NCBI GenBank assembly: GCA_902620585.1
Contig: CACNJC010000007.1
Location: forward strand, 1 to 57,436
DNA length: 57,436 nt
Direction: 5' to 3'
Source of the DNA: an uncultured Pelagibacteraceae bacterium
Lineage (GTDB): Bacteria > Pseudomonadota > Alphaproteobacteria > Pelagibacterales > Pelagibacteraceae
A program made the position numbers and the translations under genes. This document shows, piece after piece, positions 38,239 to 42,256 of this stretch; position 1 is the stretch's first letter; each line of letters starts with the position of its first letter. Below the pieces are notes generated by a model that saw only the letters and a list, made by a program, of their open reading frames with translations, did no database searches and was not told the DNA's origin.

Positions 38239-39111
38239 ATGAAGAAAAGCTTATTAAAGGGTTCATTATTTACTATTGGAGCTTCGCTTTGGTGGGGAGT
38301 AATAGGAGTTCTGTACTTTAAATTTGTTTCGTTTGCTTCTGCACTTGAATTATCAATTCATAGAGCTATTTGGACTGCAGTACTACTATTATTTACTACT
38401 CATTATTATTCTAAATGGAATGAGCTTAAAAAGATAATAATAAAAAAAACTAACATTTTTATTTTTTTTTTTACTGGACTTTTGATCTCAATAAATTGGT
38501 TTACTTGGTTATACGCAGTACAAACAAACAATCTTTTAGATGGTGCTTTAGGCTACTATATTTTTCCAATCTTAAGTGTTTTTTTTGGTTTTATTTTTTT
38601 AAAAGAGGAATTAAATAGAAATCAAGCGATTTCGATTGGTCTCGTAATTTTTGCATTAATCTATTTTTTGTTAAAATTAGGTGAAGTTCCTTGGATTGGT
38701 ATTACCGTAGCATTAACATTTAGTTTATATAATTTGATTAGAAAGAAAATCAAAGTTTCATCAGATATAGGTTTATTAGTTGAAACTTTGCTTATTTCAC
38801 CTTTAGCAATTGGACTCTTTATTTTCTTAATTAATAATGATTCAAATATATTTTCAATAAATAACCCAAGACAATCTTTTTATCTTTTTTGGGCTGGGCT
38901 TATGACTCTTGTGCCTCTTTTTTGGTATACAAAAGGATTTAAAATTATTGGTATAGGTCCAGCAAGTATGATATTTTTTCTTACACCAACTGCACAGTTT
39001 GTTTTAGGACTTTTTTATTATAATGAGCCTTTAATTTTTGATGAGATAATTTCATTTGTATTTATTTGGATTGCAGTAGTAATTTATCTTAATGAACTAC
39101 GTAAAGAATAA
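38239..39111 (+). CDS. rarD: RarD-like EamA-family transporter (DMT superfamily)
   Basis: A 290-residue inner-membrane protein with ten predicted helices, two EamA repeats, resembling chloramphenicol-sensitive protein RarD. Motifs include GASLWWGVIGVLYFKF at the start, ELSIHRAIWTAVLL, INWFTWLYAVQTNNLLDGALGYYIFPILSVFFGFIFLKEEL in successive pieces, and GIGPASMIFFLTPTAQFVLGLFYYNEP near the end. Substrate is unknown; relatives export metabolites. The ATG at 38239 is out of frame with an ATG at 38231. Its end overlaps the convergent transporter by 28 bases. Confidence 0.85.
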   Translation: MKKSLLKGSLFTIGASLWWGVIGVLYFKFVSFASALELSIHRAIWTAVLLLFTTHYYSKWNELKKIIIKKTNIFIFFFTGLLISINWFTWLYAVQTNNLLDGALGYYIFPILSVFFGFIFLKEELNRNQAISIGLVIFALIYFLLKLGEVPWIGITVALTFSLYNLIRKKIKVSSDIGLLVETLLISPLAIGLFIFLINNDSNIFSINNPRQSFYLFWAGLMTLVPLFWYTKGFKIIGIGPASMIFFLTPTAQFVLGLFYYNEPLIFDEIISFVFIWIAVVIYLNELRKE

Positions 39112-40535
39112 ATTATTATTATTGTTACAGGAACAATTATTGAAACCAAAAATGAAATAAATAATAAATTTGTTTGTATTATCGTGTTAAACATTTCTTT
39201 TGAAAATAAATTTCCAACCAAAATACTACTTTGAAAATCAGTGCTTGGAAAAAAAAGCAAACCACTAATCAAACCAAATATTATCGATAAATAAGCCAAC
39301 TTATAATTTATCTTTTTGTTAAAAAAACCATAAAAAATAGTAACTACTGCAGCACAACATAATAAATCAGCTAATAAAAAAAGATAAAGTATACTATATC
39401 CTTTTGATGCAAAAATAAAAACAATTACACTCAGTACTAATATTATTAAATTTGCTTTTTCTTTAATTTTTTTTCCTGAAATTTTTTTATGTATTTCATT
39501 TCCATTTATAATTATTAAACTAGATATAGCGTTTATTAATGTATCTATAGTGCTTAACGTAAGTGATAGAGCAAGGATTAAGACCCCTAAAGTAATAAAA
39601 AAGTGTTTTTTATCAAGTATCAGTTCAAAAAAAGCTAGATCCGGAATAACTTTTGAATTTAATGAATAGGAAATAAGCCCAGTGTAGCCCATCCAAAATA
39701 CAATTAAGAAAATAATTATAAAAGCAATTATTAAACTTGATTTTAAAATAGTTTCATTTTTTGCAGAAAATACTCTTTGCCAATTTCCTTGATGAAATAA
39801 ATTTGTAGCTGCTACAGCTATAAAAAAAGTTAATCCAGCCGTATAGTTTGGCAAATATTTTATATCAATTAAATTTGAAGAATTTTTTTTTATAATTTCA
39901 TAACTTGATAAATCTAACTTTCCTAGGATGATAAATACAGAGACTAAAAGTATTAACAGTATAAAACTAAATTGATATTTATCAGTTATAATAGAAAGTT
40001 TAAATCCTCCCTTAAGAATATATAACAAGCAAATAATTAATGTTATTCCTGATGTTATCCATAAAGGTATTTTTGAGATATAGTTTAATAAGAAGGCTAT
40101 AGCTGTAACTTCAGCTATCAGAAATATCGTTAAATAAAATAATATTAAAAAAAGACTTATTTTTAATATCTTATCTCCAAATCTCTTCTTAATAAATTCT
40201 GTTAAGGTTAAACCTCTTGGAAATTCTTTTCTAATTTTCGGTCCAAAATTATATAAAAATAACATTGGAGATGCTGCTCCTAATGCATATCCAATTACAG
40301 CTCCTATTCCTCCCCAAGTAGCTGCTGATGCTGGTCCAAACAAAATCCACGCTCCTAAAGCAGATGCTGTTAAACTTGCAGTTAATGAAAAAATATTTTC
40401 ATTCCTATTTCCAACGATATAACTTCTATTATTAGTAATTTTTCTTGAATATAAATAACCTAATCCAATAAAAAAAATGCCAATTATTATTATGGTTGTT
40501 AATGATGTTTGTATTGATATATAAGCTTTTTCCAT
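39084..40535 (-). CDS. thiV: Sodium:solute symporter family transporter, ThiV-like (predicted HMP/thiamin precursor uptake)
   Basis: A 483-residue inner-membrane protein with about 13 helices and SSS-family motifs: SYIVGNRNENIFSLTASLTASALGAW with GPASAATWGGIGAVIGYALG, LTLTEFIKKRFG and the TDKYQF element. The leader is a TPP riboswitch whose P1 contains the ATG, so expression should fall when thiamin pyrophosphate is plentiful. In SAR11 an SSS transporter with a TPP riboswitch was named ThiV and proposed to import the thiamin pyrimidine precursor HMP. The riboswitch supports a thiamin-related substrate; the exact substrate is inference. Confidence 0.85.
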   Translation of the reverse strand: MEKAYISIQTSLTTIIIIGIFFIGLGYLYSRKITNNRSYIVGNRNENIFSLTASLTASALGAWILFGPASAATWGGIGAVIGYALGAASPMLFLYNFGPKIRKEFPRGLTLTEFIKKRFGDKILKISLFLILFYLTIFLIAEVTAIAFLLNYISKIPLWITSGITLIICLLYILKGGFKLSIITDKYQFSFILLILLVSVFIILGKLDLSSYEIIKKNSSNLIDIKYLPNYTAGLTFFIAVAATNLFHQGNWQRVFSAKNETILKSSLIIAFIIIFLIVFWMGYTGLISYSLNSKVIPDLAFFELILDKKHFFITLGVLILALSLTLSTIDTLINAISSLIIINGNEIHKKISGKKIKEKANLIILVLSVIVFIFASKGYSILYLFLLADLLCCAAVVTIFYGFFNKKINYKLAYLSIIFGLISGLLFFPSTDFQSSILVGNLFSKEMFNTIIQTNLLFISFLVSIIVPVTIIIIYSLRSSLR

Positions 40536-40602
40536 AAATCCCTCACTGAATTACCGGTCAGGTTCTTAGGGTATGATCTCAGTCCTTTTGACACCCCTTA
40601 TG
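40533..40602 (-). promoter_or_regulatory. TPP riboswitch (THI element), compact, covering the thiV start codon
   Basis: Read on the minus strand it contains the conserved TPP-binding elements in order: GGGGTG, CTGAGA, ACCC, GAACCTGA and GTGAGGGA. P1 is CATAA (40598-40602) with TTATG (40533-40537), and its 3' strand includes the thiV ATG. P2 is AGGG/CCCT, P3 a very short GUC/GAC hairpin around the CTGAGA approach, and the P4/P5 arm is ACCGGTAATTCAGT. GAGGGA, part of the aptamer core, also sits four bases before the ATG as the only Shine-Dalgarno candidate. This implies translational control with no separate expression platform. Helix assignments are by eye. Confidence 0.93.
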
Positions 40603-40605
40603 TTA

Positions 40606-41883
40606 TTATACGTTTATTTTTGGTAATAAGTCAAATGATGCTGTGTCTATTCTTGATGAATGTTCTCTTCTCATCTTCCAATCATTCTTTATCCCTGCTT
40701 GGGCAATACTAATAGCGTTTCGGCCATATTTTGCATTAGTAAAATCTATCGCCTTCATTAGTGTTTTTGATTTATTCTCTAAGATTGGTGTTAATAGATT
40801 AAACTCTTTCTCTGATGACTCTTTTAATTTAGAAAGAATAATTCCTGCTTTTTGATAGAAATATCCATACTTATAAATTTTTTCTAAACCTTTGATTGCC
40901 GTTTTTACAAGTTCAAAGCTATTGTTTGAAGATACCGGTAGTTCAATAGTAATTGAATTTGAATAATACTTTCTATTTCTATCAAATGGACTTGTTCTTA
41001 TGAAAACCGTTATTGCTCTTGTTGTTTGTTTATCTATTCTAATTTTCTCTGCTGCATTTAAGCAATGAGTTGTTATTGATTCTCTTAATTTTTCTAAACT
41101 TTCTACTTTTTTTCCAAAAGATCTTGATACACAACAGCTTTTTCTTTTTGTATCCTCTGTTTCTAAATCGATGCAAGGAATGCCTCTCAATTCCATCACT
41201 GTTTTTGCACCTAACACGTTGGTGCTTTTTTTAACCCAAGTATTTGAAATATTTTTTAATTCCAAAGCATTGTTAATACCATTTTTTTTATATAACTTAG
41301 ATAATTGTTTCCCTACTCCCCAAATATCTGCGATATCAAAATTTTTCAAAACACTATCGATATTTTTTTTTAGGTACATAACACCTGTTTTATCTTTTTT
41401 AGCTATATGATTTGCCACTTTGCTCAAAGTTTTCGTGCTTGAGATACCCACGCTTGTTGGTATTCCTGTCCATTTTAAAACTCTTTCTCTTATTTTTTTT
41501 CCATATTCTTCTATTTGACTATCTTTTATGTGAGTTAAATCTATAAAGGCTTCATCTATAGAATAGATTTCAATTTTATCAGAAAATCCTTTTAAAACTT
41601 TCATTACTCTTCTAGATAAATCGCCGTACAAAGCATAGTTCGAAGAAAATATTTGTACATTATTTTTCTTAACTAATTCTTTGACTTTAAAATATGGCTC
41701 ACCCATTTTAATTCCAATTTTTTTAGCTTCTGTCGATCTTGATATAACACAACCATCATTATTAGATAATACCACTACAGGCATACTTTGTATTTTTGGA
41801 TTGAATAGTCTCTCGCATGAGACGTAAAAAGAGTTGCAATCGATTAGCGCAACTTTATTTTTACTGTTGTTTGTGAATGACAT
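40606..41883 (-). CDS. umuC: Y-family DNA polymerase, UmuC-like
   Basis: Error-prone polymerase for translesion synthesis with UmuD as partner. The 425-residue protein has the catalytic IDCNSFYVSCERLF with Asp15, NNDGCVISRS (41-50), YSIDEAFIDL (107-116) with Asp110/Glu111, and the WGVGKQLSKLYKKNGI helix-hairpin-helix, then SFGKKV and a little-finger region; C terminus contains KNDWKMRREHSS and IDTASFDLLPKI. The start overlaps the umuD gene by 23 bases. An SOS box precedes the pair. Confidence 0.93.
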   Translation of the reverse strand: MSFTNNSKNKVALIDCNSFYVSCERLFNPKIQSMPVVVLSNNDGCVISRSTEAKKIGIKMGEPYFKVKELVKKNNVQIFSSNYALYGDLSRRVMKVLKGFSDKIEIYSIDEAFIDLTHIKDSQIEEYGKKIRERVLKWTGIPTSVGISSTKTLSKVANHIAKKDKTGVMYLKKNIDSVLKNFDIADIWGVGKQLSKLYKKNGINNALELKNISNTWVKKSTNVLGAKTVMELRGIPCIDLETEDTKRKSCCVSRSFGKKVESLEKLRESITTHCLNAAEKIRIDKQTTRAITVFIRTSPFDRNRKYYSNSITIELPVSSNNSFELVKTAIKGLEKIYKYGYFYQKAGIILSKLKESSEKEFNLLTPILENKSKTLMKAIDFTNAKYGRNAISIAQAGIKNDWKMRREHSSRIDTASFDLLPKINV

Positions 41884-42256
41884 AAGTCACTACTCCCCAA
41901 ATTATTATTTCTGGATTATCTGCTAAATCTATTTTATCTAACGCATTTTTCGATCCAGAAGTTAAATAATTAGTTTCTTTGCTTTTAACTAAAGTTTTTA
42001 CTACAAGTTCTTCATTGATATTTGCTATAACAGTTGAAAAATTTTTTGGATTTATACTTTTATCAACTATTAATAAATCACCATCATATATACCAACATT
42101 TGTCATGGACTTCCCTTGTACTCTGATAATAAAAGTTGCAGGTGGGTTTGTTACGAGATGTGAATTTAAATCTATATCGTCTTCAATATAGTCAGTTGCA
42201 GGCGATGGAAATCCAGCTCCCACTTTATGTAAATAATAAGGTATTGTTAACTTCAT
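41861..42256 (-). CDS. umuD: UmuD-like S24 peptidase (SOS mutagenesis protein)
   Basis: Self-cleaving UmuD homologue that activates the UmuC polymerase after DNA damage. The 131-residue protein begins with a short arm and the cleavage context GAGFPSPATDY, where the scissile bond would be Ala14-Gly15. The Ser-Lys dyad is Ser50 (GKSM) and Lys87 (VVKT), spaced 37 residues as in E. coli UmuD, followed by a conserved GVVTYVIHK C terminus. There is no DNA-binding domain, so it is UmuD not LexA. A GTTC-N7-GTTC box lies five bases upstream of its ATG. Confidence 0.93.
   Translation of the reverse strand: MKLTIPYYLHKVGAGFPSPATDYIEDDIDLNSHLVTNPPATFIIRVQGKSMTNVGIYDGDLLIVDKSINPKNFSTVIANINEELVVKTLVKSKETNYLTSGSKNALDKIDLADNPEIIIWGVVTYVIHKQQ

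Follow-up and report, generated by a model that had tools for sequence, protein, structure and literature searches.

The thiV locus of SAR11 raises the question of what the short RNA in front of this transporter gene senses and how it could act on the gene. SAR11 bacteria are among the most abundant marine cells and depend on the B1 precursor HMP, and the rationing of HMP uptake depends on the ligand of their only TPP-type RNA. The existence of a TPP riboswitch before SAR11 thiV (SAR11_0811) is already published: in the accessible portions of the papers concerned, it was listed for Ca. P. ubique in 2009, with its short length noted (PMC2704228), drawn in 2014 (PMC4260697) and, in a 2024 kinetics paper that also holds evidence for HMP transport by SAR11 ThiV, described as a riboswitch whose ligand and activity are unconfirmed (PMC11452348). 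The element analysed here, located in a 57,436-nt stretch of Pelagibacteraceae DNA (the window), is of the same kind and precedes the same gene; those portions of the main text make no mention of missing pyrophosphate contacts, of a promoter nested in umuC or of where the element lies relative to the start codon.

A permissive scan with the Rfam model RF00059 places a THI/TPP-type aptamer at 40602-40533 on the minus strand, directly 5' of thiV, in a region that starts 3 nt past the umuC stop codon (40608-40606). The match spans 40608-40522 and scores 42.1 bits, with an E-value of 4e-7 for the 351-base stretch searched and of 2.5e-7 in a genome-wide search. The Rfam gathering score for RF00059 (54.3 bits) is not reached and, for this reason, the leader is absent from a default scan, which reports two tRNAs only; E-values of 2.5e-7 to 4e-7 still indicate that the leader is homologous to RF00059. 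The two other matches in the genome, at 14.8 and 11.4 bits, are noise and, judged by these scores, the thiV leader is the sole credible TPP element of this genome, which is 85% complete. The preliminary description had placed a TPP riboswitch at these positions without naming the strand, and had proposed a search with the Rfam model; the aptamer and its coordinates hold, with a significant match that nevertheless stays below the curated cut-off. ThiV is present in 140 of 169 genomes of the same genus, and an RF00059 match was obtained in 330 of 397 genomes of the order, with the cut-off reached in 15/397. Of the sampled Pelagibacterales genomes with a TPP-type element, about 95% are thus missed at this cut-off, and default annotation therefore under-reports these elements. 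The features of the locus are collected in Table 1.

Table 1. Positions of the features of the thiV leader and its surroundings in the window.
Feature	Position	Strand	Remarks
thiV	39084..40535	-	sodium:solute symporter, 483 aa, putative HMP transporter; PF00474, 2.1e-15
Predicted sigma-70 promoter	40605..40634	-	TTGACT (40634-40629), 18 nt, TATAAT (40610-40605); 11/12 consensus match
Predicted transcription start	40597..40599	-	6-8 nt past -10 box, first base of P2; placed from the promoter position
CATAA, claimed 5' arm of P1	40598..40602	-	unsupported as helix arm; probably upstream of the transcript
THI/TPP-type aptamer, P2-P3-P4-P5 without P1	40539..40598	-	RF00059, 42.1 bits; covariation in P2, P3 and P5; nearly the whole predicted 63-nt 5'UTR
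P2-P3 arm, pyrimidine sensor	40568..40598	-	compensatory changes in 50 relatives
P2 pairs	A40598-U40568, G40597-C40569, G40596-C40570, G40595-C40571, U40593-A40572	-	
P3 pairs	G40592-C40582, U40591-A40583, C40590-G40584	-	
T-loop UGAGA	40581-40577	-	invariant in all parsed leaders
P4-P5 arm, internal loop collapsed	40541..40562	-	C77-G78 (E. coli numbering) absent; RF00059 alignment has deletions at the CG columns
P4 pairs	C40562-G40541, C40561-G40542, U40560-A40543; then G40559 x G40544	-	
P5	A40558-U40545, C40557-G40546, C40556xA40547, G40555-C40548, G40554.U40549	-	
L5 UAAU	40553-40550	-	
SD-like GAGG in J5-4/P4	40541..40544	-	direct reading; 5 nt before ATG
thiV start codon	40533..40535	-	3 nt past the conserved AGGGA

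In 50 relatives, pairing in helices P2 to P5 amounts to 97.6-100%; compensatory changes occur in P2, P3 and P5, and the covariation score was reached by 0/500 shuffles. A model of our own, R1, gives the leader 86.9 bits, a score that is high by construction. The UGAGA of the P2-P3 arm is found in 179/179 parsed leaders, an invariance to be read with the parser in mind, as [CT]GAGA was required by it. The plain folding energy of the leader is no better than that of shuffled sequences (z 0.37), and therefore stability must come from tertiary contacts. In comparison with the RF00059 members of known structure (E. coli thiM and A. thaliana), the thiV leader shares the P2-P3 arm with UGAGA, the ACCUG, the L5 UAAU and the AGGGA, as well as a position upstream of a B1-related transporter. 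It differs from them in having no conserved P1, a P3 of about 3 bp, collapsed J4-5/J5-4 strands without C77-G78 and a score below the Rfam cut-off, and in that the aptamer itself abuts the start codon.

The collapse of J4-5/J5-4 concerns the part of the fold that holds the phosphates. The known structures of TPP riboswitches show hydrogen bonds from C77 and G78 to the pyrophosphate, whose metal ion is contacted by these two nucleotides and by G60 (PMC3764141, PMC7824784). All conserved TPP boxes had been described as present in the thiV leader; the RF00059 alignment, however, shows deletions at the J4-5 'AU' and the J5-4 'CG', and the description is wrong at the pyrophosphate-contact positions. 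We parsed 179 distinct leaders from the fetched loci and distinguished four types by their P4-P5 arm. Type A (25 leaders, e.g. CCTG-ATCTAGATAATGCTAGCGG-AGGAA) is canonical, type B (8 leaders, e.g. CCTG-TTGTGTAATTACAACGA-AGGGA) has a shortened J4-5 with the CG kept, type C (142 leaders, including that of the window) follows the pattern CCTG-N-CCGR-UAAU-UCAG-N'-R-AGGGA and type D (4 leaders) reads CCTGG-ATTGG-TAAT-TCAAT-T-AGGGA. Within type C, N-N' is mostly A-U in subtype C1, found in the window's genus and a few others, and U-A in subtype C3. The C77-G78 dinucleotide is missing from every leader of type C (142/142) and of type D (4/4). It is retained by all 33 leaders of types A and B and, outside the order, by 26/26 and 26/27 of the aptamers that were parsed correctly, the single exception having U-G.

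The first P5 position of type C is A-U in 92, U-A in 48 and G-U in 2 of the 142 leaders (AU 30, UA 19 and GU 1 for the pair 40558-40545 in the 50 relatives), a covarying pair, so that helix has taken the place of the internal loop. The nucleotide adjoining P4 is A in 96 leaders and G in 46, and therefore does not behave as an obligatory G78, and the third pair from the loop is a CxA mismatch, invariant in 142/142. The pyrimidine-sensing UGAGA is unchanged in all parsed leaders, the pocket change notwithstanding. A covariance model of type C gives 79-87 bits to the SAR11 members tested, and no other sequence in the class and phylum samples scored higher than 46 bits; the variant core was not found in the viral contigs searched. 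Since P1, C77-G78 and the curated cut-off all fail, we regard the thiV leader, on sequence grounds, as a variant of the TPP family and not as a plain TPP riboswitch.

In the ThiV tree, a single branch with 100/100 support splits CG-bearing leaders (types A and B) from CG-less ones (types C and D), so that the loss of C77-G78 follows one ThiV clade; no case of it was seen beyond the order. ThiV homologues in sister genera stand behind canonical aptamers, and in some genomes of the same genus a type B cassette takes the place of type C. Three loci (L163 in G013, L172 in G165 and L152 in G330) combine a type B aptamer with a divergent ThiV (45-48% identical where the genus is the same), as if aptamer and transporter had been swapped as a cassette. 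Type C is also found 5' of an NMT1-like gene in another genus (L153), and the genes behind these aptamers are mostly transport-related (ThiV, NMT1-like protein and solute-binding proteins). We also noticed TPP-type aptamers before a Gcw_chp protein and a short-chain dehydrogenase (L120, L115) and, elsewhere in the phylum, a THI-like element with an unusual P4-P5 region (ACCUGAUUGGCAGGAAACCGGUGUUGCAGCG; L285 in G985).

The missing pyrophosphate-contact nucleotides could mean a loss of ligand binding. In the window's ThiV clade, the internal loop that contacts the pyrophosphate in known TPP aptamers is replaced by a continuous P5 of five positions, and the RNA would therefore either bind TPP differently or sense another vitamer with the same pyrimidine. 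TPP most likely remains the ligand, because the homologous transporters of sister genera are preceded by canonical aptamers, and a vitamer without the pyrophosphate, or with fewer phosphates, is a serious alternative. We tentatively entertain the possibility that the remodelled aptamer of type C, as found in the SAR11 ThiV clade, forms a variant class of its own within the TPP fold, with the pyrophosphate pocket removed, and senses an HMP-ring vitamer (thiamin, TMP, HMP, HMP-P or HMP-PP) instead of TPP. Such a class would account for an intact UGAGA next to an absent C77-G78 in all type C and type D leaders and for the confinement of the change to one ThiV clade, and it agrees with the import of HMP by SAR11, for which the riboswitch ligand is the one stated as unconfirmed (PMC11452348); nevertheless, the canonical aptamers of the sister genera and the type B leaders of the same genus make TPP plausible as a common ligand, and new pyrophosphate contacts could come from the region of the CxA mismatch. 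The HMP-PP riboswitch (thiS motif, PMC6478431) is likewise a very small RNA that senses a B1 precursor with an HMP ring, a likeness that concerns the vitamer reading proposed for the thiV leader. It is a different aptamer, embedded in an intrinsic terminator, and its architecture is unlike that of the thiV leader, where neither such an Rfam match nor a terminator was found. If the pocket change alters specificity, the most widespread riboswitch would have a natural variant class in this leader and, if the ligand is an HMP-ring vitamer, the RNA would regulate the uptake of the precursor on which the cells depend. If TPP is still bound, there would be a second way to hold the pyrophosphate, which is relevant to TPP riboswitches as drug targets. 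Sensing of an HMP-ring vitamer refines, rather than excludes, the model of a P1-less aptamer acting on translation initiation, to which we now turn.

All 142 type C leaders have the start codon 2-5 nt past AGGGA (ATG in 140, GTG in 1 and TTG in 1), and in 85/94 C1 leaders ATG stands 3 nt past it; the only replacements being GTG and TTG is as expected for a true start codon, and use of a downstream start, which would have spoken against the preliminary description, is not indicated. In type A and B leaders of the order, ATG lies 2-8 nt past AGG(G/A/C)A. The preliminary description had also placed the only Shine-Dalgarno (SD) candidate, GAGGGA, in the aptamer core. In fact, GAGGGA is the only SD-like stretch of the thiV leader and an SD-like GAGG or AAGG lies in the 3' strand of P4, with GGAGG in the order's other family; the usual anti-SD (CACCUCCUU) is present in a genome of the same genus, from which it was taken, the 16S 3' end not being found in the window's own assembly. 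However, an SD of at least 4 bases precedes 9/51 ORFs of the window (random 8%), and with SDs so scarce, it may be the AUG region, and not the SD, whose occlusion matters: the nearness of the folded RNA to the AUG may be the important feature. In the order's second family (L122-L143), a canonical TPP aptamer stands before a signal-peptide or solute-binding protein, and AGGGA is changed to AGGAA, which creates a GGAGG SD in the aptamer 2-8 nt before ATG. Aptamers a few nt before a start codon were also found in other Alphaproteobacteria (e.g. L246, probably L240 and L242), and therefore this layout is not unique to SAR11.

No terminator was found in the leader region and, across the 142 type C leaders, the ribosome-binding region is integrated in the aptamer with no separate expression platform, as had been proposed. 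In this respect the leader resembles the first, direct-occlusion group of riboswitches (SAM-II, SAM-III and preQ1; PMC10907184), in which aptamer and platform are one and the initiation region is in or adjacent to the aptamer, whereas TPP riboswitches are given in the same review as an example of the strand-exchange group. Base stems of actinobacterial THI and RFN elements have been described as overlapping the initiation site, with Actinobacteria called the only such group (PMC1262725); the thiV leader belongs to Alphaproteobacteria and, unlike those elements, uses the P4 strand and proximity to the AUG, not the base stem. An exchange of strands within the aptamer, in which a CUGA/UCAG hairpin would free the SD, was considered and rejected, since this hairpin is 4 kcal/mol weaker than P4-P5 (-2.3 vs -6.3 kcal/mol in the window) and is absent in type D.

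The predicted promoter is embedded in the last codons and the stop codon of umuC, with the -10 box ending at 40605, 7 nt 5' of the first G of P2. The 18-nt spacer and a 5-of-6 -35 box recur in 80/93 C1 leaders, the distance from the -10 box to P2 is 7-9 nt in most of them, and a long ORF ends 3-11 nt 5' of P2 in 79/94 leaders of the same type. The Asp codon inside TTGACT is GAC in 75/75 umuC tails, which are related and so do not amount to 75 independent events, and 17.5% GAC was counted for the other Asp codons of the same ORFs; therefore, the promoter DNA sequence itself appears to be under selection. Upstream of thiV, and in the same direction, lie umuD-like and umuC genes (S24 peptidase and DNA polymerase V-like; 40605-42256, minus strand), with a gap of 70 nt, and read-through from this SOS-type umuDC operon could give extra thiV expression with a longer leader.

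Taken on comparative sequence evidence, the leader is likely to be a minimal, P1-less riboswitch of the TPP/THI family that makes up nearly the whole thiV 5'UTR and occludes the initiation region directly. Transcription would start at or beside P2, from the promoter nested in the end of umuC. With enough of the sensed B1 vitamer, the P2-P3 and P4-P5 arms would dock around the ligand; P4 would then hold the SD-like AGG strand, with the folded aptamer 3 nt from the ATG, and the 30S subunit would thus be kept from loading, with less ThiV as a result. Without ligand, the marginally stable P4-P5 arm would open and thiV would be translated, which is the direction of control that we infer. Control at the level of transcription, by Rho or polymerase pausing instead of at translation start, has a precedent in TPP riboswitches with combined translation/Rho control (PMC10907184), and is unlikely here in view of a leader that lacks both an intrinsic terminator and the space for a platform; Rho may still act as a consequence of blocked translation. 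The economy that the preliminary description had attributed to this switch is borne out by a strong compaction that fits a streamlined genome, with the promoter in the end of the previous gene, the aptamer as 5'UTR and the ribosome region at the edge of the aptamer.

Direct occlusion of the start codon and ribosome site had been proposed before, through a P1 helix CATAA/TTATG that encloses the ATG and hides it upon ligand binding. Direct occlusion at the level of translation does seem the most likely mechanism, but not by way of P1, and a helix of this kind is very improbable. The two pentamers (40602-40598 and 40537-40533) are both present and complementary in this genome. Nevertheless, A40598, the last base of CATAA, is the closing base of P2 and covaries as such (AU 18, CG 14, UA 10 and UG 2 of 50 rows), and is therefore contested between P1 and P2, and the 5' arm lies past the -10 box and ahead of the predicted transcription start, so that most of CATAA would probably be outside the thiV mRNA, umuDC read-through transcripts excepted. 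Conservation of the pairing was assessed by a swap test, in which the longest stem between cognate flanks is compared with that between flanks swapped between genomes. The mean longest stem is 2.78 bp for cognate and 3.17 bp for swapped flanks in C1 leaders (74 distinct), and 4.53 vs 4.59 bp in C3 leaders (40); cognate flanks are thus no better than swapped ones, and the pairing is not conserved in relatives, an outcome that the preliminary description itself had named as refuting. Relatives do keep the 2-5 nt between AGGGA and the start codon, and a weak SD in P4. In a control of 26 aptamers of other Alphaproteobacteria with a P1 visible by eye, the values are 4.08 vs 3.27 bp (sd 0.22). A few of the control rows were anchored on a wrong GGG; this makes the control weaker and leaves the SAR11 result untouched. 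The ATG lies within a stem of at least 4 bp in just 8% of the leaders of the same type, vs 14% by swapping. Pooled over clades, the canonical P1 register is slightly more often paired than in shuffles (51.3% vs 42.9%; 2/500 shuffles), an excess that we put down to clade composition, since it disappears within single clades, and P1 is 51% paired while P2 to P5 reach the values given above.

A decaying, non-functional TPP riboswitch, to which the score below the Rfam cut-off, the loss of the canonical pocket and the absence of P1 might point, is hardly credible, as the cores barely vary across many species, compensatory changes occur and the distance to the start codon is fixed, all of which shows strong purifying selection. 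At its other end, thiV meets a convergent EamA/RarD transporter gene, and the 3' ends of the two genes overlap by 28 nt (39084-39111).
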